DNA from: a virus
Strand: one strand, 5' to 3'
Length of the DNA stretch: 64,000 bases
Virus record (IMG/VR): IMGVR_UViG_3300009431_000980
Location: 43,590-107,589 of that record
Under the pieces are notes generated by a model. It was not told the DNA's origin. It did not search any database and saw only the letters and a program-made list of their open reading frames with translations. A program made the translations under genes and the position numbers. Below are positions 5,960 to 61,501 of the stretch, piece by piece. Positions within the stretch are counted from its first letter, which is position 1; every line of letters starts with the position of its first letter.

Positions 5960-8900
5960 TTATATTGTCCATACACGCTTGTCTACTGACTTTCTATTGT
6001 AATCCAACTATCGTACCTGAAATATCATCGATATCTAGTTTGTCCGCGTCGGATTCAACTGGTTTCCACCATGTTACTTGCTGCTTCTCTTGTTCAAGAG
6101 AATGGACTATCTCTTCTACCTCTTTCTGAGGTAGCCGTGCGTTTAGAAGGGAAATGAATTCCTTTTCTCGAATAGTATGTCCTTGATCGGATAGATAACT
6201 AATGTATCTGTTATACTTCCTGCGAAGAAAGAGGTCACCCTTATCCCTATACATTATTGCCATTAGGAATATAGATGCAGATTTCCTATACCAGACATTC
6301 CATGTATTGGTGCCTTTCTTATTACGAAGACGACCCATTGGAAAGCCATAATACCTCTTTAACTTTGCTTGAATCCATCGAAGGAAATTGTATGAACCTG
6401 ATGTGAAACTAAGCATAGGAGCTCGGCCCTTAGCATTAATACTGAAGGATCCATCTCCATCAAAGTAACCACGTAGGAAGTGAGAGAAGAACTTCTTAGG
6501 GACAGGAAGCTTACCAAGGACAAGAGACTTACGAAACGGAACCTTAAGCTTCATCAGTCTTTTGGCTATGTAGTTGCTAACAAACCTCAGATGATATGTA
6601 CCATCACTGTTACTATAAACACGCTCTGGTACGCCCAACAAATTGGCTAATCGCCTAATGTGGTCTTCATCATTTAGCGTTATATCAATAACCATTATAC
6701 CACTATCCTTACGCTTCATTATACACCCATCAGCAACGATCAGGCCATAAACATAAGCCATCTCCTCACTCCAATGGTCAAAGAAGTCTACCTTTAAGCC
6801 CCATGCACGTCCGCGTCCCATTACTTTCAGGCCCTCTCGGTTTGCCTTACTCACAATCTGACGTCTGGGACGATCCGGTAATAGTTCATCAATACGCGGA
6901 TTCCAGCTATAGTTCTCGTGAAGGATCTCAACTTCTTTGTTAGTCCATAGTTTCATACTATTCAGTCTCTACAGGGCTTGTCAGACTCCCGGCAGTAACC
7001 GGGACGAAACACCCCTCGGGATTCCCCAGTAAGGGTTCCCCGATTAAGCACGGTTTAATGTGACCCAGCCCGTCTTGGGTAAAGCCACAAACGTCATTTG
7101 TGCATTTACTCCTACTCTTTCGGTAGGTATGGACTATCTCATCATCCCACATAAAGTGGGAGCCAGGCGTATTATCCGGCTGACAAAGCACTCCGGATCC
7201 ATCCATAGTGGATGAGTCTCTGCAGGGCGTGAACCCCTCAGGATTAGCATATCCCGTAGGACTTAGCCTCCCCTGATATAAGCCTGGTTTAGGCATCTCA
7301 ATTACTCGAGAAGAGAGGCAGTTGTGTCGCCTCTTGGACATTGTCATCACGACTTGTTATCATAAGGCCGTTTAAACCTTATCTCTCCAACTTTCATTGG
7401 AGTCCGGACTATATCATCACCCACGTGGGGTGCTGGGCGCTCTTGGCTTGAATCATTATTGTCAGAGATCATTCGGACTTTGTACAACATTGATGGTATT
7501 ATAAATGGCTTGACGATCTCAATAAACTTCTTTGCCTCTTTTGTACCACAGCGAATCCTGTACTTTCCTTTTCCCTTGACTATTGTAAAGCGTATTCCAT
7601 GGACATCACGAAAATAGTCCACTATTACTTGGTTTTCATCCCAGCTTACATATGTGCTGGTACATAACTCCCAAGCGTGAACCTTTCCGTTGCGGCGTTT
7701 AGTATACAAACTACCATCATCCATATGCCATATTGCGATACCTTGTGGAGTAAGCATATCAAGGATTCTACGGGTAACAACCTTTTCCCCATCCTTGTAC
7801 AACCAATCTCTAAGCACCTTAAAGTACTTATTTGTCTTGCTACACTTCACACCTGGGTATCCATTATTGTTATACTCAACGATTCTAGGTTTCTTGCCAC
7901 CTAAAGCAGAATGGAGGAGCTCGGTTTTATGCTCTAGATATGCTTTCTGCTTCACTGAGTGACATAGCCTAAGTACGTAGGATTTGGTATTCCACCGTTT
8001 GTCTGTACTGACACCTATGTAACCATCTCCTATACACATACCTAAGAGTATGCTACGTTTGTCTTTATTCATTTTCGTTACACACTTTGGTGAACTATTA
8101 TTATATGATTCAAGCTAGTCTCTACACCTTCCGTACTATCTAAGCCCAGTACGGCTTGGCTCGGAGTTACCTTATGCAATAGCACTTAGGCTTCCTCCGA
8201 ATTCACCCAGTTTGTCAATCCCAATCTCTTGGGAAAGCGGCTGATTGTCAACCGACACACCAGTTCCCTCTGAAATGAGGTGAACTCCATGTATTCGCAT
8301 TGTTGTCGCTGACCCAAACTCGTTAACCTGTATTGTTACCATAGCGGCTCTTTATCCGCTACTTCTTCAGGTTTCCCTGAAGCACAGACTATATCATCAC
8401 CCCGAAGGGGTGCCGGGAGCTCGTGCATCTCGTTATTGTTGGGACTCAGAGATGTAGTCGTTGCACCTTCCACGCTATCAAAGCCCAGCGTGGCTTGGCT
8501 CAGTGTTGCCATATCCCAGATTTGACTGGTACTTAGGGATCCACTGAATTCACCCGGTGTTTCACTCAGAATCGCTTCTGAGAGCGGCTGTTCAATAAGA
8601 GATTCAGATACTAACTGTTCTTTATCGTATTTAAGATTACTCATCTCTTATTTAGGTTTACCGACGAGTGTAATATCGAACGGTGGAATCTGGTCACTAT
8701 ATGATGGAGACTCCAGGGTGTAGTCACTACCTACATCTGAGGCATCGCCTAAAGCACGAGAAACACCCGCCGACCCTGCCCAATCATCTGGTTTGGCTAC
8801 ATAGCGAGCACTCCGCATGATGTCGTGTAGGGCTTGGCGGTCAAACATGGTCAATATAAGTGCTGAATTATCAATAACTTACGTTATCTTCTATTCCTGG

Positions 8901-11900
8901 ACTATATCTTCTTGAACTTGTGTGCCAGTGTCATAGACTCGGTAATTGTATGATACTTCTGGTATATCAATTACATCATCACCTATAACACCCGCATATT
9001 TGTTGTACTTAGTCAGTAAGCATAGAATATCTGGATGGCCCTCATACATTCTCTTCAAGATCTCGAGAGAAGTAGCCTTACGATACCGCAGATCCCAGAC
9101 CTTGTTTCTTTTCCTGGGCCTTAGTCTGCCACCTGGGAGATCCCAATAACGACTGATTCGGGCCTCGATTGATTTAAGAAACTGCCTCGATCCACCAGTA
9201 AATGTGATACTTGGTGTGGTGTTATTGGATATCTGAAGACAACCATCTCCATCAAAGTAGCCCCTCAAGAAGTGAGCGAAGAACTTCTTAGGTACGGATA
9301 CTTTCTTGAGTTGTGTTGATTTACGCTCAGACAAGCCAAGCTCCTTCAATCTCTCTACCATATACTTACTGGTAAACATTACCCTATACATCGGATGTAT
9401 CATATTCAGGTACCCGCCCTGAGGTAAGGCATTAAGCCCTTGCTGTCCATAAATATACCCTCTTGAGATACCCAACTCATCACATACTAGTTCTAGTATG
9501 TATGGGTCACTTTGGGCAAATGTGATCTTATAAACACTAACCCCATCAACCCGGGTTGGTGGTGCATATATGTTTCCATCCGCTGTGAAGAATCCTAGGA
9601 TGTATGTCATGTTAGGGGTCCAATGATCAAAATAGTCAGCCCTTAGAGTATCTATCCTACCTCGCCCATCTCTCTTCAGGCCTATATTATTAGCCTTCTT
9701 TATTACCTGATGTGCAGACCTGTTAGGAAGTAACATAGCTGTCCTTGGATTCCAGGAGTAATTATCTCTCAGGATCTCAGTTTCTTCTTGTGTCCAGTTC
9801 ATATTCTATTAGTTCAAGTCCGGCGTTTCATGGGCGGATAAATCCATCCCATGATCCCACGGCTGTGGGATAGTCTCTACAGGGCTCGTCATACCCCAGG
9901 AGTTTCACCTGGGAGACACCTGGTTTTATCCAAGTGCGTACCTTATAATGCATAGAAGGAACCTCACTTACGTAGTGAGTGATAATACTAAAGAACCTGT
10001 CATGTGATTCCTTGCGTATGTAAACACGATTATCACTCCAGACATTGATCTTAATCCCATAAACGTGATCCATGTATTTTGCTACACGAAGCATATCTTC
10101 TTCGCAGAAAGCATACGCGGATATAACTACTGCCTCCTCAACATCGTAGCTACCATCATCCATGAACCAGGTAGCTATCGATAAAGGTGACAGCAGTTCA
10201 GTTAAGTCAATGTCACGTGGAATTCGTTTAACAGCTCCATTGTAGAAGCTGGTATGTATAGAAGTAAGCTCGGTACAGGCTAGTGACTGAAGTTTTACTA
10301 GGTTTCTTTTCTCATCATTCCAAATACTCGATGGAAGTCCAAGTATAGACTGTTTCCACTGTATATAATCTGAGTGACGATTAGAGTGTGTTACTGAAAA
10401 TCTATAATTCACACACTCTGGATCCTTAAATAAGGATCCGTCTCCTAGCAAAGTCCCATACAGTACTCTGACCCCGTCTCTAGTAATAGGACAGGATCTG
10501 TACTTCTTCCACTTTCCACTAGACATTTATGTTAGTTCCTATTGTTTGCATCACAGGTACGGATACCCCTCGGTATTAGCCTCTCGGCGTTCACCGATAT
10601 AAGCCGGATTTAAGCAGAGCCAATTCATCTCAACCCTGCGATTCCGCGTTTCAGTAATTCTCCATGGTTTCCCATGGGCCTGGACTGTTCCTTCAGCTGT
10701 TTGACCCTTGGAGGCCCAGCTGGCTAGCGTGCAGTCTCTACCGCCTCTGCATCCCGGTAACCAAGTCCCCGGGACCGTCTTTGCATCGAGATTGCCTTGG
10801 CGCCTCACGGCCCTGTAGGTTTCCTCGAACGAGCTAGCTTTTACAAGGGCAAACATCTATTTACCCTTCGAGTAACTCACGGCATCTGATTTCAATTCAT
10901 CCTAACCTTTCGGTAGGTATGGACTATCTCTTGCTGTCTAAATATAGTTAGTTGGCAGTCTGGCCGACTCGAGAGCCACCTTGAATGATCCGAAGTGGCG
11001 TATGGCCAGGGTTGGACTTATGCAATCCTCAGTGTAGTGATACTTTACGGCTGGGAAACCATCCCACGGCCCAGTCTGTTCATAGAACTCTTGTAGGTCG
11101 AGGACTATTAGCTTCCGCTTCTCACCTGAGGACAGCCTAGCGTTCAGCCGCCTATGAAAGTTGGATGGTGTCTCACTACGATCAAAGACTCCATCCCAGC
11201 CCATAGGCTTCTTGCGTTCCATACTTGGTACATCCTCGACTAGACTGAGGAGCCTCTTGGAGGCTTCCCTGTTAAGATGAAGGTAGTACCGCCTAATAGC
11301 GTGTCCTGGTTTGCGCTTGATGGCAGCCTCAATGTTCCACCGGTCTCTAAGCCATCCCTGGAGGCGTTTGACGTCCTCAAGGGTGAAACTATCGGTGCTG
11401 ATCTCTATTATCTGACGGTGAACATGATAGGTGCCATCATCATAGTACCAGGAAGTCAGTGTCGAGGAGTCAAAGTCATCCAGATAGTCCGGTATTATCT
11501 TCTGGCCATCTGGGTACCATATCTGCCGTAGATCGGACAGTTCAGTAGACGTATTGGTGTAAATTCGATAAACAGGACCACAGTCCGCCTCATGTCCTTT
11601 AATGCCCAACGTGCGTGCCTCTTTATATACCCACTTCACATCAAAGTCCTGACTCATGATTGTTGCCTTCCACTCAAGGTAGGACTTGTCATCTTCTTTG
11701 TGATCTTCCTCATAACGACTATTATGCCAGCGTGTGTATCCATCACTGGCGGTATGATATTGGCACTTGCTCAAGTAACCGTCACCCAACAGACTACCAT
11801 TCAATAGCTGATGTGTTTGATCGTTCATTTAGACAGCTCCTGCGTATTGCTTCCGTTACCCTGTATTAGGGTCTTTCTCAACGGAGCCTGATCATTGCTG

Positions 11901-12251: not shown

Positions 12252-12262
12252 TAGTTATGTCA
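12252..12262 (-). promoter_or_regulatory. Putative promoter element, TGACATAACTA
   Basis: Minus-strand TGACATAACTA, about 85 nt upstream of the tail tube start and directly downstream of a terminator hairpin. The terminator / element / gene arrangement suggests a new transcription start for the tube operon. Confidence 0.4.
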
Positions 12263-21909: not shown

Positions 21910-21920
21910 TAGTTATGTCA
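21910..21920 (-). promoter_or_regulatory. Putative promoter element, TGACATAACTA
   Basis: Minus-strand TGACATAACTA followed by TATATAG, 25 nt before the scaffold start. Two imperfect hairpins (about 21935-21955 and 21970-21996) lie between it and the protease stop. Confidence 0.42.
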
Positions 21921-26012: not shown

Positions 26013-27773
26013 TTATTTGTAAACCTTCATATCTTCTAAAGCTTCATATACTTCCCGCAACTCGGCGGATGTTAGGCCCTTTGCACAATCACCAGATACG
26101 CGAGATCTGTAGACGGCATCCCGTGCTGTAGCCGGATCTACCCCCAGCCGCGCAATCATAAACCTTTCCAATTCCGCATCAGTTGGCCCCGATATAAGCA
26201 AATCATTAAGGGTTGGTGCCGTTTCCCCCGTTGAAGGCACTCCAAGAGCCGTAGAGGTTGTTGACGGGGACATAATATTGCGTAACGCAGAATCAAGTTC
26301 ATCTAGATCCTCAAAACCATCACGCATTGGGTTATCTATATAAGTTCCTGCATCTCCACCACCTCTATCTAAACCACCTCTATCTAAACCACCTCTATCT
26401 AAACCACCTGTATCGTCTCCTGCACTTATATTATCATCAGCAGGGATCTCTTCCTTAGTTGTGTCATACATGTCATCTAGGATATCTTCCACGCATAACT
26501 CAGCCCTATATCCTGCATCTATTAAGGCATCCATCAATTGAATAAGAATGGTTAAATACTCAATGACCATTGTTTCCTTGATATCCTCCTGTATTTCTCC
26601 CCCTAACAACTTAGACATACGGGCCTCTGTTTGACGTCGATAACTGATGAGCTGCGCAAGAATACCTTCTCGACCAAAAAGTTTAGAAAGTGCGAGCTGG
26701 ATCAAAGAGAGAAATGGCATACACGATTGTATCTTATACTTTTTCAACATCTTCATAGCCCAGGCGTATATAGATCTCTTAAGTATTCCACATAACACCT
26801 GAAGTGTCCCAAATGTGGCCATAATCAGACTGTCCACCATAATCTTGAAGATGTTCATCGTTAACATCTTAATGCTAAAGTCCTTTTTCTCCGAGATCGC
26901 AAGAGTAAGAATTAACCGAACGCTGCATAATACTGTCCTTACCTCACGCATGGCCTTCCTAACATCTTCATCCAATACTCCGGCCTCCAGAGCCTTCTCC
27001 AACTCTGTTCGTTCAATTTTATCCCAAGCAGCAAGTTGGCGTATAAGACAGCAGACAAACATAACTGGCTCAGTATCCATATGCTCCAGCGATCTTACAG
27101 CGCCTTCAAGAAGGTCTACGGTTTCCTCAAAGACACGTCCGATGACGCCATAGCCAGCATCCTCTATATTTGTTAAGTTTCCTCCAAAACCCTTATGAAA
27201 ATTCGCTATTGGTGTGCCTCTTGGCACACTTAAGGGGGAAGGTATATCAACACCCTTATTCTCATAGAATTCTTTAAGCCAGCTACTCTGAACCCCTCCC
27301 CCCTCAAGGGTTAATTCAATAATTGCGCCTCCACTCACAAACTTCGACTTAACAAACTCAGGTAACCTATCAGAAATACGAGTCTCTCCCTCCACGAAAC
27401 CCACCCTATTATGACCCTCATTAGCCTTCCACTCTTCCTCCATGGCAGTGGCAGAGAAGTCCTTTACACTTATCTTGGTGTTCCCAAGATTGATAGGTTT
27501 GGAGAGCTTAGCAACACCAGTCTCTTTAGAAAAGCCCCAATCCTCACGTAATGTGTCACTGTATGACGCAAGATCATCAAGACGGGTTGTCAGCCAGGTA
27601 TTAATCCTACTCGCGACTGGATTCGGTTCCCCACTACTGGGCCCATGCGTACGCCCTGTCATCTCCTCCTGTAAACCACTAAGCTGGTTCTCCAGAGACC
27701 CTGAAAACTCACTCACAGCAAGATTCCCCAGATCCTCGGCCGCCTTGGCCGCCTTGTCAAAATCATCCGGCAT
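26013..27773 (-). CDS. Unknown structural-cluster protein with GGLDR repeats
   Basis: 586 residues. Helical, with hydrophobic segments around 290-370 (ILTLAISEKKDF..., MVDSLIMATFGTLQVLCGIL) that could cross or bind membranes. A low-complexity linker has three GGLDR copies encoded by a 15-bp tandem repeat. The start overlaps the terminase stop (TAATG) and it precedes the portal gene. Layout resembles the gene at 46026-47300 (acidic Gly/Asp linker and short C-terminal helical domain). Function unknown. Confidence 0.55.
   Translation of the reverse strand: MPDDFDKAAKAAEDLGNLAVSEFSGSLENQLSGLQEEMTGRTHGPSSGEPNPVASRINTWLTTRLDDLASYSDTLREDWGFSKETGVAKLSKPINLGNTKISVKDFSATAMEEEWKANEGHNRVGFVEGETRISDRLPEFVKSKFVSGGAIIELTLEGGGVQSSWLKEFYENKGVDIPSPLSVPRGTPIANFHKGFGGNLTNIEDAGYGVIGRVFEETVDLLEGAVRSLEHMDTEPVMFVCCLIRQLAAWDKIERTELEKALEAGVLDEDVRKAMREVRTVLCSVRLILTLAISEKKDFSIKMLTMNIFKIMVDSLIMATFGTLQVLCGILKRSIYAWAMKMLKKYKIQSCMPFLSLIQLALSKLFGREGILAQLISYRRQTEARMSKLLGGEIQEDIKETMVIEYLTILIQLMDALIDAGYRAELCVEDILDDMYDTTKEEIPADDNISAGDDTGGLDRGGLDRGGLDRGGGDAGTYIDNPMRDGFEDLDELDSALRNIMSPSTTSTALGVPSTGETAPTLNDLLISGPTDAELERFMIARLGVDPATARDAVYRSRVSGDCAKGLTSAELREVYEALEDMKVYK
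26360..26415. repeat. 15-bp tandem repeat (GGLDR codons)
   Basis: The plus-strand unit ACCACCTCTATCTAA occurs at least three times in a row, with degenerate flanking copies. It encodes GGLDR on the minus strand, inside the gene at 26013-27773. Likely slippage-prone linker expansion. Confidence 0.75.
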
Positions 27774-30055
27774 TATATATCTGTTCTCCTTGGAGTGTGG
27801 TGTCTATCTCCCCGGGACCCACGACGTTTGGGGAGAAGCGGATCCCCCTTATCTTCCCGCTCCGGCGGTTCACCTTTCTTAGGCCAATGCCCATAATGAT
27901 TGACTGTATACTCGCCTGCTTGAAATACCTCTGGGTCCAAAGATGTCTTCTTACTACTTACAGGACTAAGTACATTACGTCTGGCTATTGCATGGGGAAT
28001 GAGAGTAGAATCTTCTACCCCTGCACTTTCCATAGCATAATCCCAGGCCATGAAATCATCATGATTAGTGAGGTAAGCATGAACAGCTAACATCCAACTA
28101 TCTAAGACATGATCGTTTCCTTTGGAATAAACCTCCCCCCGGGCCCCTACACGTTCCACAGTATAAGCACGCATCTGGCCCACAAGTCGTTTCTCGTTAA
28201 GTTCTATTGGGTTGCCCAAGACATCAACAGCAGGAATAATAATTCTACCACCCTCCAAAACTCGAACTCCATTACGAACAAGGAAATTCTTAGTCCGCAC
28301 CTTACTGGTACTATTGGTAGTTGGATCAATAACCTCACTAGAGCCGCCAAAATCAACTACCTCCATCCTATCCAGCATCCTGGTAAGGCCGGTACACCTC
28401 ATACCGGTAGGAGAGATACCCCTCTGTATGGATAATCGTAAGAGCTCCCAATTGGTATGCCCGTGGCCATGATCAAAACAGGCATAGTCAATCCTGTACT
28501 TATGTAGAAGAGATAGGATAAAATCAACTGCCACTACGTTGGTATATTCCAGGGCATCAACCCTATCTGCCTTGAAGAGGCGAAGAACCTTTCCCACTTT
28601 CTTAGGTTCTCCGATAAGGCCAGACCTGTACGGGACCATTTCCACCGGCTTATTAACATGCTCCAGGATAACTACATGTACCCCAGTGGCGGCCTCATTC
28701 CAGTCAACCCCCATGGTATAATAGTTCTCCGGATTAAATTGTAGGTCAGGATAGTCATAAACAAATAGAGCCGGCTCAATAAACTTGTTCCGGAAGACGC
28801 CTTCAGTCGCATCACTAAAGAGGGCACAATACTCCCTATTGTATTGACTCTCATCCGCGATGGAACGGGCTAGTGCTTCCTGTTCCGTAGTCCATTCCGG
28901 GCTAGATGAGCTGGGGATGTGATGTTCGTGGAAGTCAAACCTGGGATCGTCCTTGTTGCGACTCAGGTTAAAGAAGAAACCCCGACGGCCGGAGGGTGTA
29001 GAAGAAAATATTACCTGCGTATCCTTGTGGGAGGTAGATATGGGCCAGATATCCTCAATGATTATATTCTCCGGTATATAGTCACCCTCATCAATAATAA
29101 GGTCGTGCGCAGAGTTATGTACAAGGAAACCTCCATTAGCTACTCCAGATATGCGAAAACCCCCTAACTCTTCTGGGGGTGGTGTCATAACAATGAAGTT
29201 GTGTTCCTCTTCCACAGTAAGGTCATAAGTCCTCTCCTCCCCCATCTCCTCAACATTATATGCTCGGCTCCAATTAAGTCCACCATTTATATCTACCACC
29301 CCCACAAAGTGAGACATATTCTGGTCAGTTTTCCAAGTCTTGATATCCTCTAATTCTATAAAACCCTTTCCAAAGATAAAGATCTTGTGCTCAGCAGTAG
29401 CCTTTAGAATCCGACTGGAGGTGGTATTTAGTTGATAGATAAGCTTCTTACCATTATCGTGTATAGCCGTCACCTTTCTAGTCACCATACAAAGATCATC
29501 CAGGTCATAGGAACGAACCCGTTCACCAGCTTTAATTTCCTCAACTGATTTCCAAGATCCGCCTGCCATCCATACCTTTGTTCCTGCGGGGAGACATTTA
29601 CCGCGAACTGAGGAATTACCAACATTACCGATAATACTGGAACCATTCTCAAACCAAATCTCGTGTGGTTTCTTCCGAACATTCTTAATGGAGTCCTTTA
29701 TCTTTGGGGCGTCATATATCATATTACCCATTAGGTTAAATATGATATCCAGCTGGTTCTCGTAGGCGGCTACAACCAAAACCTGACGATAATTATGAGT
29801 GAAGGCTTTCCAAATCGCCTCAATAGCTAAGGTTACGGATTTTCCAACGCGCCTTCCTAGTCGCAGAAGACGATGCTGGTGTTGGTCCCTAAGAATAGTC
29901 CTCTGATAAGGCCGTAAGACGAGAGGCTCAGTTGGATCGGCTGGATTACGGAGGTAAGATTCAGCAAAGAGCGTAGGGTCTATAATGGTCTGGGCCTCCA
30001 GGAATTCGTCTGGAGAGAAACTACCTAGGCTGGATTGATCTTTTCGGTCCGACAT
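27773..30055 (-). CDS. Terminase large subunit, interrupted by an intein
   Basis: 760 residues including a 161-residue intein. The ATPase has Walker A LGRRVGKS (about 66-73) and Walker B DLIIDEGDY (about 318-326). The nuclease domain shows GVDWNEAATG, a DYACFDHGH motif, and a final Asp in GNDHVLDSWMLA. It packages DNA through the portal. The intein (residues 154-314) sits between Walker A and B, giving a mature protein of about 599 residues, normal for a large terminase. It overlaps the upstream gene by 31 nt. Confidence 0.85.
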   Translation of the reverse strand: MSDRKDQSSLGSFSPDEFLEAQTIIDPTLFAESYLRNPADPTEPLVLRPYQRTILRDQHQHRLLRLGRRVGKSVTLAIEAIWKAFTHNYRQVLVVAAYENQLDIIFNLMGNMIYDAPKIKDSIKNVRKKPHEIWFENGSSIIGNVGNSSVRGKCLPAGTKVWMAGGSWKSVEEIKAGERVRSYDLDDLCMVTRKVTAIHDNGKKLIYQLNTTSSRILKATAEHKIFIFGKGFIELEDIKTWKTDQNMSHFVGVVDINGGLNWSRAYNVEEMGEERTYDLTVEEEHNFIVMTPPPEELGGFRISGVANGGFLVHNSAHDLIIDEGDYIPENIIIEDIWPISTSHKDTQVIFSSTPSGRRGFFFNLSRNKDDPRFDFHEHHIPSSSSPEWTTEQEALARSIADESQYNREYCALFSDATEGVFRNKFIEPALFVYDYPDLQFNPENYYTMGVDWNEAATGVHVVILEHVNKPVEMVPYRSGLIGEPKKVGKVLRLFKADRVDALEYTNVVAVDFILSLLHKYRIDYACFDHGHGHTNWELLRLSIQRGISPTGMRCTGLTRMLDRMEVVDFGGSSEVIDPTTNSTSKVRTKNFLVRNGVRVLEGGRIIIPAVDVLGNPIELNEKRLVGQMRAYTVERVGARGEVYSKGNDHVLDSWMLAVHAYLTNHDDFMAWDYAMESAGVEDSTLIPHAIARRNVLSPVSSKKTSLDPEVFQAGEYTVNHYGHWPKKGEPPEREDKGDPLLPKRRGSRGDRHHTPRRTDI
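29114..29596 (-). mobile_element. Mini-intein in the terminase ATPase domain
   Basis: Starts at Cys154 (block A CLPAGTKVWMAGG), continues with block B-like ILKATAEHKIFIF and block F-like RTYDLTVEEEHNFIV, and ends GGFLVHN before extein Ser315. The joined extein reads SVRGK-SAHDLIIDE, a normal terminase sequence. No LAGLIDADG or HNH domain is present, so it is a splicing-only mini-intein. Confidence 0.85.
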
Positions 30056-51587: not shown

Positions 51588-51598
51588 TAGTTATGTCA
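51588..51598 (-). promoter_or_regulatory. Putative promoter element, TGACATAACTA
   Basis: Exact TGACATAACTA on the minus strand, 39 nt before the start of the small membrane protein gene. Same sequence as 12252-12262 and 21910-21920. Confidence 0.42.
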
Positions 51599-54314: not shown

Positions 54315-54974
54315 ATGGTCATGAATGCAACTCTAAATATCCAGGGAGCCCGTGCCCTGGTGAAAGAAGCACGGGAAACACAAGTCCGGGCTGAGCAACA
54401 GGCCCAGTCCCGGAAGGCTGAGGCCAAGTGGGCTGCCAAGAAGGCGGCCATGGAGGTCAAGGCTGGAGTAAGAAAGGACTTAAGGGAGGAATCTCTTAAG
54501 TCCGACAAAAAGGCGGCAAAGGCCATCATGGTCTGCGCCGAAGAGGCCCTTCAGGAAAGGAGGGCGGCCATCAAGGCCAGTTATCAAATGGAGTCCTTGC
54601 TTGGCCAACTGGAGGAAGCTAAGAGCCTTAGCTCCAGGGCCAGGCGGGACTGGGAAGAGGCTCTAGGGCTCCAGGAAGAGCTCAAGGGACTCAGCCACGC
54701 GGCCGAAGACTGGGACGCCATGTGTGCCCTGGTTGGTGTGTGTGGAGCCCAGGCCAACGCTGCTCAGCAGGAACTGAGGACAGCTATGGAGACGTCCTAT
54801 CAATTCCTGCTTACGGCCACCACAGGGGAGCGAAAGGCTCTTCGGTCGGCCAAGAGCAAGTTCTTCAAGGCCAGGCAGGTCCTGAAGAACTATAGGGCCT
54901 TTGAGCAGCCAGTGGTCACAGCTGCCACATTCAGGCCCTTTGAGGGTTTGGATAAGGCACTAGAAAGGAGGTAA
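54315..54974 (+). CDS. Ala-rich coiled-coil protein
   Basis: 219 residues, almost entirely helical, very rich in Ala, Lys, Glu, Arg (ALVKEARETQVRAEQQAQSR). AAGGAGG lies 7 nt before the ATG. It resembles a rod-like protein; no domain recognised. Codon use is more GC-rich than in the minus arm. Confidence 0.55.
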   Translation: MVMNATLNIQGARALVKEARETQVRAEQQAQSRKAEAKWAAKKAAMEVKAGVRKDLREESLKSDKKAAKAIMVCAEEALQERRAAIKASYQMESLLGQLEEAKSLSSRARRDWEEALGLQEELKGLSHAAEDWDAMCALVGVCGAQANAAQQELRTAMETSYQFLLTATTGERKALRSAKSKFFKARQVLKNYRAFEQPVVTAATFRPFEGLDKALERR

Positions 54975-56244: not shown

Positions 56245-56328
56245 TTGCTGCAATAAGTAGGAGGTGTAGACTGAAACGAGGAGGGCGCCCAGTAGTTTTG
56301 GCGCTCTTTTCACAATAGAGGAGGTATC

Positions 56329-59300
56329 ATGCGTAAACAACGTAGAAACTTCCGAGCCCGGGATTCAAAGATGGTTGACCGTCTGGTCAGCAATATCTTT
56401 GGCGACGTGGGTAAGGAAGTAATAAAGGAAGAAAAGGCCAAGGGAAACCTGTATTCAGGCCCGGTAACCTTTGGCCGCTTCGACGTTACCCCCCGGCGGG
56501 ATCTGTGGAATAATACCCACAGTGTGAAGATCCCTGTCGTCGATCTGCAAGGTAGACCACTCTACCTCAAGGATGCGGACGGCGAGATCATCACAAACCG
56601 TCGGGATGAGAGGTTAGCGGTCGAGGTCCCGAACTTCAACACATTTCTGGAGGCGGATATCGTGGCTGGAGTAACCAGCCTGGATGCCTTCAGGTTCGTG
56701 GACCTGACCGAGCTGCTGAGATCTAATAGCAGCAATCTGAACAAGTCTGTTCTCATCAAGCAGACCGTTCAGAAATGGGCCGGCCAGATCCTGAGCGCCA
56801 AGAAAGGCAATGCGGCGGACACACCCGTACGCCTCTTGGTCTGCACGGATCCGGAATATGTTGCCAGTCGCCGCAGGTTCTTCAGCTCCCCGCAGGACAT
56901 GGTTGCCTATGGCAAGGCGACCGTCACCTCTCACGAGGTGATTGTCGCGGGGAGCTTCAAGTTCCTCGTGGTAGCTGAGGGAGAGCTCGGCACCGCTGAT
57001 GGCCAGGGCAGGATGAGTATCCCACTCACTCGTGAGTCGGGCTACAATACCTGGGGCCAGAAGCAGTTCAGGCTCGAGTTCGAAGAGCTGGATCTACTGG
57101 CCGCCGGTAGCCTGCTGCCTAGTGTCCGTGGTGAGGATGTTGACTTAATCCTGCCGATCTCCATCTTCAAGGGAAGAAAGGAGATCCCGGTAGAAGTAGG
57201 TCGCACCTACAAATACCATGGACGCCTTGGCATCATGGCCGATGCGGCGAGCCGTGATCTCAAGATCAGGGACAACATCGAGGTTCAGCACTATTACAGG
57301 GATCTCGATTGGCCCATGGTCATGGAGAGGCTCGGCGAACTGCATGGGGCCCATAAGACACCTCGTGGCTACCTGGAGGTCGTGAATGACCTCGAAGAGC
57401 GCCAGGAGGACTTCATGGTCCACCACGCGGTCCTTAAGGCTGTCCTTGCTGGTGGCGAGGAGGCTTGCTATGTCGGTCAAACGCTGATGAAGCATCCTTG
57501 GATCGCCCGCAAGATATATAACCACCTTCTGGCTCAGTACGCAGATGCGGCCAGGTGCGCCAATCATCGCTTTGATGGCGCATACCTGGCATGTCTGGAG
57601 GCGCTACCTGACGATGTGGCATTTGTTCCCGGTGGGTCCGGGAATGAATGGGTCTTCAGGATCCCGATGTTGTCTGCGGGCAACTTCGCACGGCTGAAGA
57701 TCGTCGATGAGGATTATCTGTATAGCCTCATGAACGGCGACAAGGCCCACGATGCGGAGCTGACTGCGGCCATGAGGTGCCGGGGAAGCATCTTCACCAA
57801 CAGCACGGTGGCCAAGGTCATGAACAGTGACTTCGACTTCGACCCAATGTGCCGCTGCGGTGAGGATGATCCGCACCACGTCAAGCTCGACCTGGTGGCC
57901 GAGGACTGGCACGGGATGCCGGGTGCGTTCAAGCCCAAGGAGCGCACCAGGAGCCAGTGGCACAAGTTCGGTACCACTGATGCTGTCAGCGCCTTCCTCA
58001 ATGCACCGAACATCGGCGCGTTGACGCTGCTTCAGCACAACATCTTTCTGCGGAAGGATGATGCTAATGCAGTCAAGTTCCTGAAGGGACTTGGGCTGAC
58101 AGTCCAGAGTGCAGCCGAGCTCACTGGCCTGGCCACTACGTTCGCAGTGGCCGCTCACAAGTGGAGCGAAAGACTCCCCGAGAAGAAACAGGACACTGTG
58201 GATGAGCTCCTGAAGTTCTTCACGGGCAAGAGTCCGTTCCACAGGAGCGCCCTGGCCGAGATCCGTGCGGGTAATACGGACTGGGATGTTGAGCCTGATC
58301 ACTTCTTGAACAGGCTCGTCCTGAAGGTCCGTGATGCCTTGAAGGAGGACAACCTGGAAGCCATTCTGGACGGGTTCAATCCAGGAACGTTCTTCGGCTT
58401 CCTGGGGAGTCCCTCTGACTTGACCCTCAATGATGAGGTCATTGACATGGTGAAGGACTACAATGTCGCCATTGCCAAGGTCCTCACCAGCACCAAGGAG
58501 GGATCCTTGACCCGGGGCGAGTCCATCACGGTGGTGTGTGAAACCAACCGCTGCCATTGGGCCTACTTACGTGAGGCCATGGACCATAAGTCCTTCAAGG
58601 ACGCGGTTCGTATCCTGTGGAACGCAGGACACGAGGCTGCTGAGAGGTCCAAGAAGGGTTCCAAGGCGTCCGTGGTCTTCACGGCCGGAGTTGCTGATAT
58701 CATTGTTGACTGTCTCAACGATGAATACGGCGGCTTTGGGAGGGTGCCCCGTGATTATACAGTCCTAAGACCTGAGGAGCATCCCGCTCCTCGGGTCCGG
58801 CTGTATGGAGGCTGGAAAGGACATGCCAAGGATCTCGGCTATGATCCAAGAGAAATCGCCATGAAGCTACGTGACGATGAGGATGCGAAGGCTGCATTTG
58901 ATCTGTCCGTGGTTGAGTGGGGTAAAACCCTGGACAAGGTCGTCGGTAGGAAGGTTATCATCGGATATAGCTGTACTAAGAACGGTAAAAGCTATAAGAA
59001 GGCGATCTTCTACCAAAAGAAGATCCTTGGCGAAGTCCGGTCCACAGTTGTGGAGCCTGGTACGTATATCCTCAAGGGGTCAATGACGTTAACTGGCACC
59101 GTGCTGGTTATTCTGACTCCTGTATTCGAGGAGAATGGAACAACCACAGCCCGTCACCTGATGAAGGTGATTGGGTTGTGGCAAGATGTGCCAGGGGACA
59201 AGAGCAACGCCAGGAAGGCGGCTAAGACCATTGAAAAGGTCAAGGCCGCCAAGCACCTAGCGGGTGTAGAGATTAAGCCTGACGAACTTGGGCTTGGGCT

Positions 59301-59454
59301 TTACATCAAAGGTGTGAGGTGCTGCAAAGTTGTGTCTGGGAGCCCAAAGCGGACCAACCATGGACACAGCGTTGTAACTGGTAAAGTAAGGGTGGTAGAT
59401 ATTGTACAGGACGGGCAGCTATCTGCCTTCCTGACAGTGGACCACCACAAATAA
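56329..59454 (+). CDS. Large unknown protein, candidate divergent RNA polymerase
   Basis: 1041 residues; AGAGGAGG upstream. Residues 442-449 read VFRIPMLS and 498-507 MNSDFDFDPM. In RNA polymerase beta-prime the second double-psi barrel has R-x-P (R425-P427 in E. coli) and, downstream, NADFDGDQM with three metal-binding Asp (D460/462/464). Here R444-x-P446 and D501, D503, D505 keep the order, including Asn before and Met after. Single-chain phage polymerases related to YonO also use D-x-D-x-D, not always with Gly. I could not find a convincing partner-barrel lysine motif. Cys at 508, 510 (MCRCG) follow. Otherwise unrecognised; a chance match cannot be excluded. Confidence 0.4.
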   Translation: MRKQRRNFRARDSKMVDRLVSNIFGDVGKEVIKEEKAKGNLYSGPVTFGRFDVTPRRDLWNNTHSVKIPVVDLQGRPLYLKDADGEIITNRRDERLAVEVPNFNTFLEADIVAGVTSLDAFRFVDLTELLRSNSSNLNKSVLIKQTVQKWAGQILSAKKGNAADTPVRLLVCTDPEYVASRRRFFSSPQDMVAYGKATVTSHEVIVAGSFKFLVVAEGELGTADGQGRMSIPLTRESGYNTWGQKQFRLEFEELDLLAAGSLLPSVRGEDVDLILPISIFKGRKEIPVEVGRTYKYHGRLGIMADAASRDLKIRDNIEVQHYYRDLDWPMVMERLGELHGAHKTPRGYLEVVNDLEERQEDFMVHHAVLKAVLAGGEEACYVGQTLMKHPWIARKIYNHLLAQYADAARCANHRFDGAYLACLEALPDDVAFVPGGSGNEWVFRIPMLSAGNFARLKIVDEDYLYSLMNGDKAHDAELTAAMRCRGSIFTNSTVAKVMNSDFDFDPMCRCGEDDPHHVKLDLVAEDWHGMPGAFKPKERTRSQWHKFGTTDAVSAFLNAPNIGALTLLQHNIFLRKDDANAVKFLKGLGLTVQSAAELTGLATTFAVAAHKWSERLPEKKQDTVDELLKFFTGKSPFHRSALAEIRAGNTDWDVEPDHFLNRLVLKVRDALKEDNLEAILDGFNPGTFFGFLGSPSDLTLNDEVIDMVKDYNVAIAKVLTSTKEGSLTRGESITVVCETNRCHWAYLREAMDHKSFKDAVRILWNAGHEAAERSKKGSKASVVFTAGVADIIVDCLNDEYGGFGRVPRDYTVLRPEEHPAPRVRLYGGWKGHAKDLGYDPREIAMKLRDDEDAKAAFDLSVVEWGKTLDKVVGRKVIIGYSCTKNGKSYKKAIFYQKKILGEVRSTVVEPGTYILKGSMTLTGTVLVILTPVFEENGTTTARHLMKVIGLWQDVPGDKSNARKAAKTIEKVKAAKHLAGVEIKPDELGLGLYIKGVRCCKVVSGSPKRTNHGHSVVTGKVRVVDIVQDGQLSAFLTVDHHK

Positions 59455-60770: not shown

Positions 60771-60980
60771 ATGAAAACTAAAACAAGTATGACAAGCAAG
60801 ACGGCCAAAAACAAGGCAGCCCTGATCTTGAAGAAGGCCAAGGGGATGAAGAAGAGGATCCCCTGGCTGAAGAAGGTCCTAAAACATGACAAGGTCATGA
60901 AGGTGCCTGTCAAGCTGGCTGTAATACAGCTGGCTAATAAAAGGTGGGCCGCCCACCTGAAAGAGGAGCTGGTCCAATGA
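60771..60980 (+). CDS. Small Lys-rich protein
   Basis: 69 residues, about a third Lys/Arg, helical ([20 protein letters not shown]). Its stop overlaps the deformylase ATG (ATGA). Possibly nucleic-acid binding. Confidence 0.48.
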
Positions 60981-61501
60981 ACATCATAACAAACCTGGAC
61001 CTGCTCAAAATCCCCTGCAAGGAGGTGGGGGAGGAAGTAGGTCACGAGATTGGTAAAAAGCTCCTGGAGAAGCTCCAAACCCATAAGGCAGGAGTCGGAC
61101 TGGCCGCGAATCAGGTAGGCCTCGACGCCTGCGTGATAGCAATGGCAGTCAAGGAACCTCTATACCTGATTAATCCCGTGATTACAGAGCGGGAGGAAGA
61201 GACCTATCTCCGGAAGGAGAGCTGTCTCTCACTCCCGGAGGTTAAGTTTATAACAACCTCCAGATCCCGGGGGGTTGTTGTGGAGGCTGACAATATTCCC
61301 GGGGCCCTATACTTCTACGCCGGGAAGGATAATCTATCACAGCTGGAGACCGCTTGCATCCAGCACGAAGTGGATCACATCAACGGGATAACAATATATG
61401 ACCGCCAAGCGAAAGGCAGCGCTTCCCACATGAAGGTGGGAAGGAATGAACCGTGCCCCTGCAATTCTGGGAGAAAGCACAAGAAATGCTGCGGCGTATA
61501 A
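60977..61501 (+). CDS. def: Peptide deformylase with C-terminal SEC-C motif
   Basis: 174 residues from the ATG at 60977 (overlap with the upstream stop). All three deformylase motifs are present: [10 protein letters not shown] (about 39-48), ESCLSLPE (about 79-86; usual EGCLS) and [10 protein letters not shown] (about 130-139), giving the metal ligands Cys and two His and the catalytic Glu. The last 25 residues ([19 protein letters not shown]) are a SEC-C zinc motif, not part of ordinary deformylases. Phage deformylases probably speed maturation of phage or photosystem-like proteins in the host; the SEC-C tail may bind ribosome or SecB-like partners. Confidence 0.9.

Follow-up and report, generated by a model that had tools for sequence, protein, structure and literature searches.

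A divergent phage homologue of single-chain two-barrel RNA polymerases with an altered active site and kin on cyanobacterial plasmids

The 64,000-nucleotide stretch of phage DNA analysed here (the window, from IMGVR_UViG_3300009431_000980) encodes a 1041-residue protein that, judged from its sequence, belongs to the single-subunit clade of two-barrel polymerases as a divergent member. This clade unites enzymes of phages, plasmids and RNA interference (PMC10770324). The homology to two-barrel polymerases is almost certainly real. We found that the protein is related to a family of cyanobacterial DFDGD proteins and to two further phage proteins, and that it has replaced two residues that are conserved in the active site of its relatives. 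As far as the tools used here show, three things would be new: the link between the phage protein and the cyanobacterial family, the additional two phage members, and an active site of this unusual kind.

The gene and its motifs

An earlier note on this DNA had proposed a divergent single-chain relative of the DPBB RNA polymerases, based on R444-x-P446 and the triad D501/D503/D505. The open reading frame and all of these residues are located where the note had placed them (Table 1), with the described spacing of 57 residues between R444 and D501, and D501-F-D503-F-D505 is the sole D-x-D-x-D of the protein. The gene is also present in a second record, IMGVR_UViG_3300009314_000003 (148 kb), with zero nucleotide differences.

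Table 1. Position of the polymerase homologue gene and of its motifs in the window
Feature	Position	Strand	Basis
Gene, two-barrel polymerase homologue (1041 aa)	56329..59454	+	Clean ORF with ATG start; identical in second record
AGGAGG ribosome-binding site (Shine-Dalgarno), 4 nt before ATG	56319..56324	+	Sequence
Stretch (~residues 126-566) where homology to DFDGD polymerases of cyanobacteria and phages is detected	56704..58026	+	BLASTP, hhalign
Q246-F-R248, partner-barrel (DPBB-B) motif, ~ QDE-1 Q736-x-R	57064..57072	+	Q and R invariant in 24 cyanobacterial and two phage relatives
A259-G260, KG lysine position (QDE-1 K743), Ala here (codon GCC)	57103..57108	+	K in 24/24 cyanobacterial rows and all other aligned sequences
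S278-I-F-K281-G282, second partner-barrel lysine, ~ QDE-1 K767	57160..57174	+	Invariant in cyanobacterial and phage alignments
R444-I-P446, R-x-P ahead of the metal site	57658..57666	+	R and P invariant in cyanobacterial, phage and proven-polymerase alignments
D501-F-D503-F-D505, metal-binding triad, Phe504 for DFDGD glycine	57829..57843	+	Three Asp invariant; Gly in 24/24 relatives

By itself, the pair of R-x-P and D-x-D-x-D is weak evidence. An R-x-P located 25-80 residues ahead of a D-x-D-x-D was observed in 4.1% of 5000 shuffles of the window protein, and the same test with D-[FYL]-D-x-D (n=5000) gave 0.7%. A scan for the DFDFDPM pattern returned other matches that resemble portal proteins or are unrelated; its presence in portal-like proteins is a chance occurrence. 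The flanking N and M of N-x-D-F-D-x-D-x-M, which had been taken as conserved, are coincidental since relatives carry Q/G/A and I/L/V at these positions. What raises the observation above chance is the homology that sequence comparison detects over roughly residues 126-566.

Homology to cyanobacterial and phage proteins

Sequence searches of Pfam, PHROGs, NCBIfam and PDB with the window protein were uninformative. Pfam gave no match at E 10, so the RdRP domain (PF05183) was not detected, and tblastn against annotated phage records found none. The only lead came from a hypothetical Gloeothece plasmid protein, which tblastn matched with E = 1 over residues 257-456 and which has R-S-P...GDFDGD at the matching place.

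We then compared the window protein to a family profile of 24 cyanobacterial DFDGD proteins from which it had been left out. The match is significant and spans both barrel blocks (hhalign E 1.4e-8, residues 168-508), with DFDFD placed on DFDGD. Its score of 84.2 compares with a mean of 19.7 for 200 shuffles (sd 3.3, maximum 32.8) and with 30.8 for the best other protein of the window. Pairwise BLASTP detected the cyanobacterial family member L074 (1e-8, residues 126-505) and the phage proteins L164 (2e-6, residues 243-536) and L162 (1e-4, residues 182-566), and these alignments continue through DFDFD. The proposed relationship to the DPBB RNA polymerases is thus borne out by both profile and pairwise homology to cyanobacterial and phage DFDGD proteins. 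Overall identity to the cyanobacterial relatives is about 20%.

The expectation of a new polymerase branch did not hold as such. The protein groups with the cyanobacterial plasmid family and the two other phage proteins, and in the tree it sits on a long branch of its own whose placement is not resolved.

Residues kept and lost in the active site

The DxDxD triad and the preceding R-x-P are present in the window protein. Residues that are invariant between it and the 24 cyanobacterial proteins include Q246, R248, G260, S278, F280, K281, G282, R444, P446, G486, D501, D503 and D505. In an unsupervised MAFFT alignment with gp64 and gp96 of P23-45, YonO, 1706 orf75 and Arthrobacter gp87, R248, G260, P264, R444, P446, D501, D503 and D505 line up. 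In the alignments, the Asp triad coincides with the aspartates of DFDGD and R444/P446 with the R-x-P, so the earlier note had picked the correct residues.

In QDE-1, the invariant residues of DPBB1 are Q736, K743 and K767 (PMC1750930). By motif order, these would correspond to Q246, Ala259 and K281 here. Of the lysines that had been expected in the partner barrel, K281 (the K767 equivalent) is therefore kept, whereas the KG lysine (the K743 equivalent) is Ala259. All 24 cyanobacterial proteins in the alignment have a lysine at position 259, as does every other sequence aligned. Because of this substitution, we describe the protein as a divergent homologue and not as a canonical member of the superfamily. 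Further changes affect columns that are otherwise fixed in the 24 relatives: the family R256 is Leu, the family G250 is Glu, and Phe504 takes the place of a glycine. The cyanobacterial family signature is KGT with D[FY]DGD, where the window protein reads AGS and DFDFD. In a wider set of 83 family ORFs, KG was found in 79 and DFDGD or DYDGD in 80, the rest being fragments or missed by the pattern. Ala259 and Phe504 are two departures unique within this comparison.

For Phe504 there is a precedent, as the earlier note had suggested. The crAss-like phage protein phi14:2 gp66 reads YRIP...GSDFDID and thus also has a bulky residue at the glycine position, although this is a comparison by motif only. 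As gp66 has DFDID, a bulky residue in place of the DFDGD glycine is tolerable and not fatal by itself. Work on PolD likewise found that the DFDGD motif is not strict (PMC4996933). No precedent for the loss of the KG lysine was found among the relatives compared. Furthermore, the AVDxxK block that the family has downstream is not detectable in the window protein. An 'AVAAHK' near residue 610 was considered as a candidate for this block and rejected, as a weight-matrix scan gave no support.

Comparison with known polymerases

The proven RNA polymerases YonO of SPbeta and gp64 and gp96 of P23-45 have VRL...KG or QVR...KG, R-x-P and DxDGD in the same block order as the window protein; however, they keep the KG lysine and the glycine, both of which it lacks. 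The cyanobacterial profile does not pick up YonO, whose score is at noise level, and the comparison of YonO with the window protein is a motif alignment only. The Asp triad of YonO is essential for RNA extension (PMC5467207).

Phage proteins annotated in RefSeq as RNA-dependent RNA polymerase, which match the Pfam RdRP domain weakly, are also picked up by the cyanobacterial profile. For instance, Lactococcus phage 1706 orf75 and Arthrobacter CapnMurica gp87 share the block order Q-x-R...KG...R-x-P...DFDGD and match the same family profile. Unlike the window protein, they have extra HTH domains and retain the KG lysine, and BLAST of 1706 orf75 against the window protein gave no match in the catalytic region. 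A similar arrangement at the metal site is found in phi14:2 gp66, with R-I-P followed by DFDxD and a bulky residue for Gly; this protein, compared by motif only, has 2180 aa versus 1041 aa here.

The cyanobacterial family and two further phage proteins

The cyanobacterial DFDGD family is large, and many members are plasmid-borne (e.g. WP_013334938 on plasmid Cy782202 of Gloeothece verrucosa). One member (P0002) matches 93 plasmid records, some perhaps through its C-terminal part alone, and relatives are encoded by at least 188 stretches of genome contigs. No Pfam or NCBIfam entry was found in the members scanned, and the family appears to merit a description of its own. That YonO-like proteins occur in cyanobacteria has been mentioned before (PMC5467207). 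The family shares with the window protein QFR, SxFKG, R-x-P, G486, DxDxD and an AYG-like N-terminal block, in order, and is its best profile match. It differs by KGT and DFDGD/DYDGD in 24/24 aligned members and by an often long C-terminal extension. The members (L004-L010, L074-L153) measure roughly 1000-2400 aa, and one of the long C-terminal extensions present in some of them matches phrog_9995. The cyanobacterial plasmid replication protein CyRepX (Slr6031) was considered as a relative and rejected, as it has no DFDGD and its profile score is at noise.

Scanning viral contigs for a motif like D-x-I-x-P-x-S-x-F-K-G, we found the two further phage proteins, L162 (IMGVR_UViG_3300025161_000007) and L164 (IMGVR_UViG_3300044673_000327). 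Like the window protein, they are single-chain; they have 750-890 aa with QFR...DLILPxSxFKG...RYP...D[FY]DGD. In contrast to it, they possess the KG lysine and the DFDGD glycine, and they come from different phages. In BLASTP, they match the cyanobacterial family much better than they match the window protein. Both are canonical relatives. The L162 gene (L162/L172) follows an SSB gene at a distance of about 80 nt; L164 (L164/L171) has DUF4326 and DUF7831/SLOG-like genes nearby. When viral contigs were scanned twice for close relatives of the window protein, the same phage alone was returned, plus a spurious 11-residue match (L012), and none of the viral relatives found exceeds about 25% identity.

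Genome context

The window phage is a myovirus. Its tail sheath, portal, terminase and head proteins are encoded on the minus strand, and the polymerase homologue is located on a plus-strand arm together with small ORFs and a peptide deformylase, which has a C-terminal SEC-C motif (60944-61501, +). In the sister record, a ribonucleotide reductase, a RecD2-like helicase and a clamp-loader-like ATPase are encoded on the same strand. A further RNA polymerase was not recognised there, and either record may be incomplete. Myoviruses with related portal genes (G005, G011, G012 and others) yielded no homologue by search or ORF motif scan; two R-x-P/DxDxD matches in these portal relatives score at noise and were rejected. 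The gene has a GC content of 55.5% and a GC3 of 68%, compared to 46% and 38-46% in sampled late genes. The higher GC would fit an acquisition; the neighbour at 54315-54974 is similar in GC.

The window contains exactly three copies of the element TGACATAACTA, where 0.03 are expected (12252-12262, 21910-21920 and 51588-51598, each on the minus strand), and the sister record contains two more (L042:11255 and 13685). Some copies are located just upstream of genes, and TGACATAACTA is likely a phage promoter element. A tie between it and the polymerase homologue is unsupported.

By eye, the terminase large subunit (27773-30055, -) has an intein-like insertion after GKCLPAGTKVW that ends at VHNS, and several homing-endonuclease-like proteins are clustered downstream of the tail sheath gene (5994-11828, -). 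In the sister record, the ribonucleotide reductase (L043:8786-12976) is split by two apparent inteins with homing endonuclease domains (Pfam).

Is the protein an active polymerase?

We think that the protein, whose active site is altered, probably still functions as a polymerase of the phage, most likely one that makes RNA. We favour an active enzyme because the protein retains the Asp triad, R-x-P, QFR and K281 at about 20% overall identity, which suggests selection on the active site. The protein would be a single-chain two-barrel polymerase of the phage, plasmid and RdRP clade, kin to the cyanobacterial plasmid DFDGD proteins, with DPBB-B at about residues 240-300 (QFR...AG...SIFKG) and DPBB-A at about 440-510 (R-I-P...DFDFD). 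We infer that the two barrels pack together and that D501/D503/D505 hold two Mg2+ ions, while K281, possibly with nearby basic residues, would do the work in which the KG lysine normally has a share. The protein may extend RNA on a DNA template, acting as a phage transcriptase that is expressed early. From the altered site (Ala259, Phe504), slower or specialised catalysis would be expected. The loss of the KG lysine, the undetected AVDxxK block and the portal-sharing myoviruses without a detectable homologue would argue against an active polymerase.

Since the KG lysine is lost, a repurposed inactive enzyme is a serious rival, although we consider it unlikely. A once-active polymerase that lost this lysine and the catalytic-loop glycine might survive as a two-barrel fold with crippled or no catalysis that has taken on a different role, such as binding nucleic acids, regulating the host polymerase or acting as a decoy. 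The long branch, the undetected AVDxxK block and the substitutions of K259 by Ala, R256 by Leu, G250 by Glu and G504 by Phe, all at columns otherwise fixed in the 24 relatives, are consistent with such a fate. However, the Asp triad, R-x-P, QFR and K281 are all kept, which is not expected of a dead enzyme, and the phage polymerase phi14:2 gp66, whose structure has been reported (PMC10770324), has Ile for the same glycine.

Still less likely is an active polymerase that serves replication, be it a primase, a primer-making RNA polymerase or another template-dependent two-barrel polymerase like PolD, which shows that the two-barrel fold is able to make DNA (PMC4996933). The position of the L162 gene behind an SSB gene, the plasmid location of the closest relatives and the ribonucleotide reductase, RecD2-like and clamp-loader-like genes that the sister record carries on the same strand point in this direction. 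Yet the proven single-chain phage members YonO, gp64 and gp96 are RNA polymerases for transcription (PMC5467207, PMC10770324), and a primase-like accessory domain was not detected in the window protein. A chance motif pair in an unrelated protein is very improbable: the pair does occur in 4% of shuffles and DFDFDPM in portal-like proteins, but the profile and pairwise matches lie far beyond the shuffles and include both barrel blocks in the correct order.

We thus return to a phage polymerase with an altered active site as the preferred reading. That the protein is a two-barrel polymerase, working or repurposed, that does without the KG lysine and has Phe in its catalytic loop is a more tentative proposal, slightly less likely than not. 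It could represent either a natural minimal active site for which a single partner-barrel lysine is enough, or a pseudo-polymerase of this fold in a phage.

The enzyme that transcribes all cells has its simplest relatives in the single-chain two-barrel RNA polymerases. The window protein, L162 and L164 connect phage polymerases to a large and essentially unannotated family of cyanobacterial plasmid proteins. Furthermore, with the natural loss of one partner-barrel lysine and of the catalytic-loop glycine, it becomes directly testable which parts of this ancient active site are indispensable.
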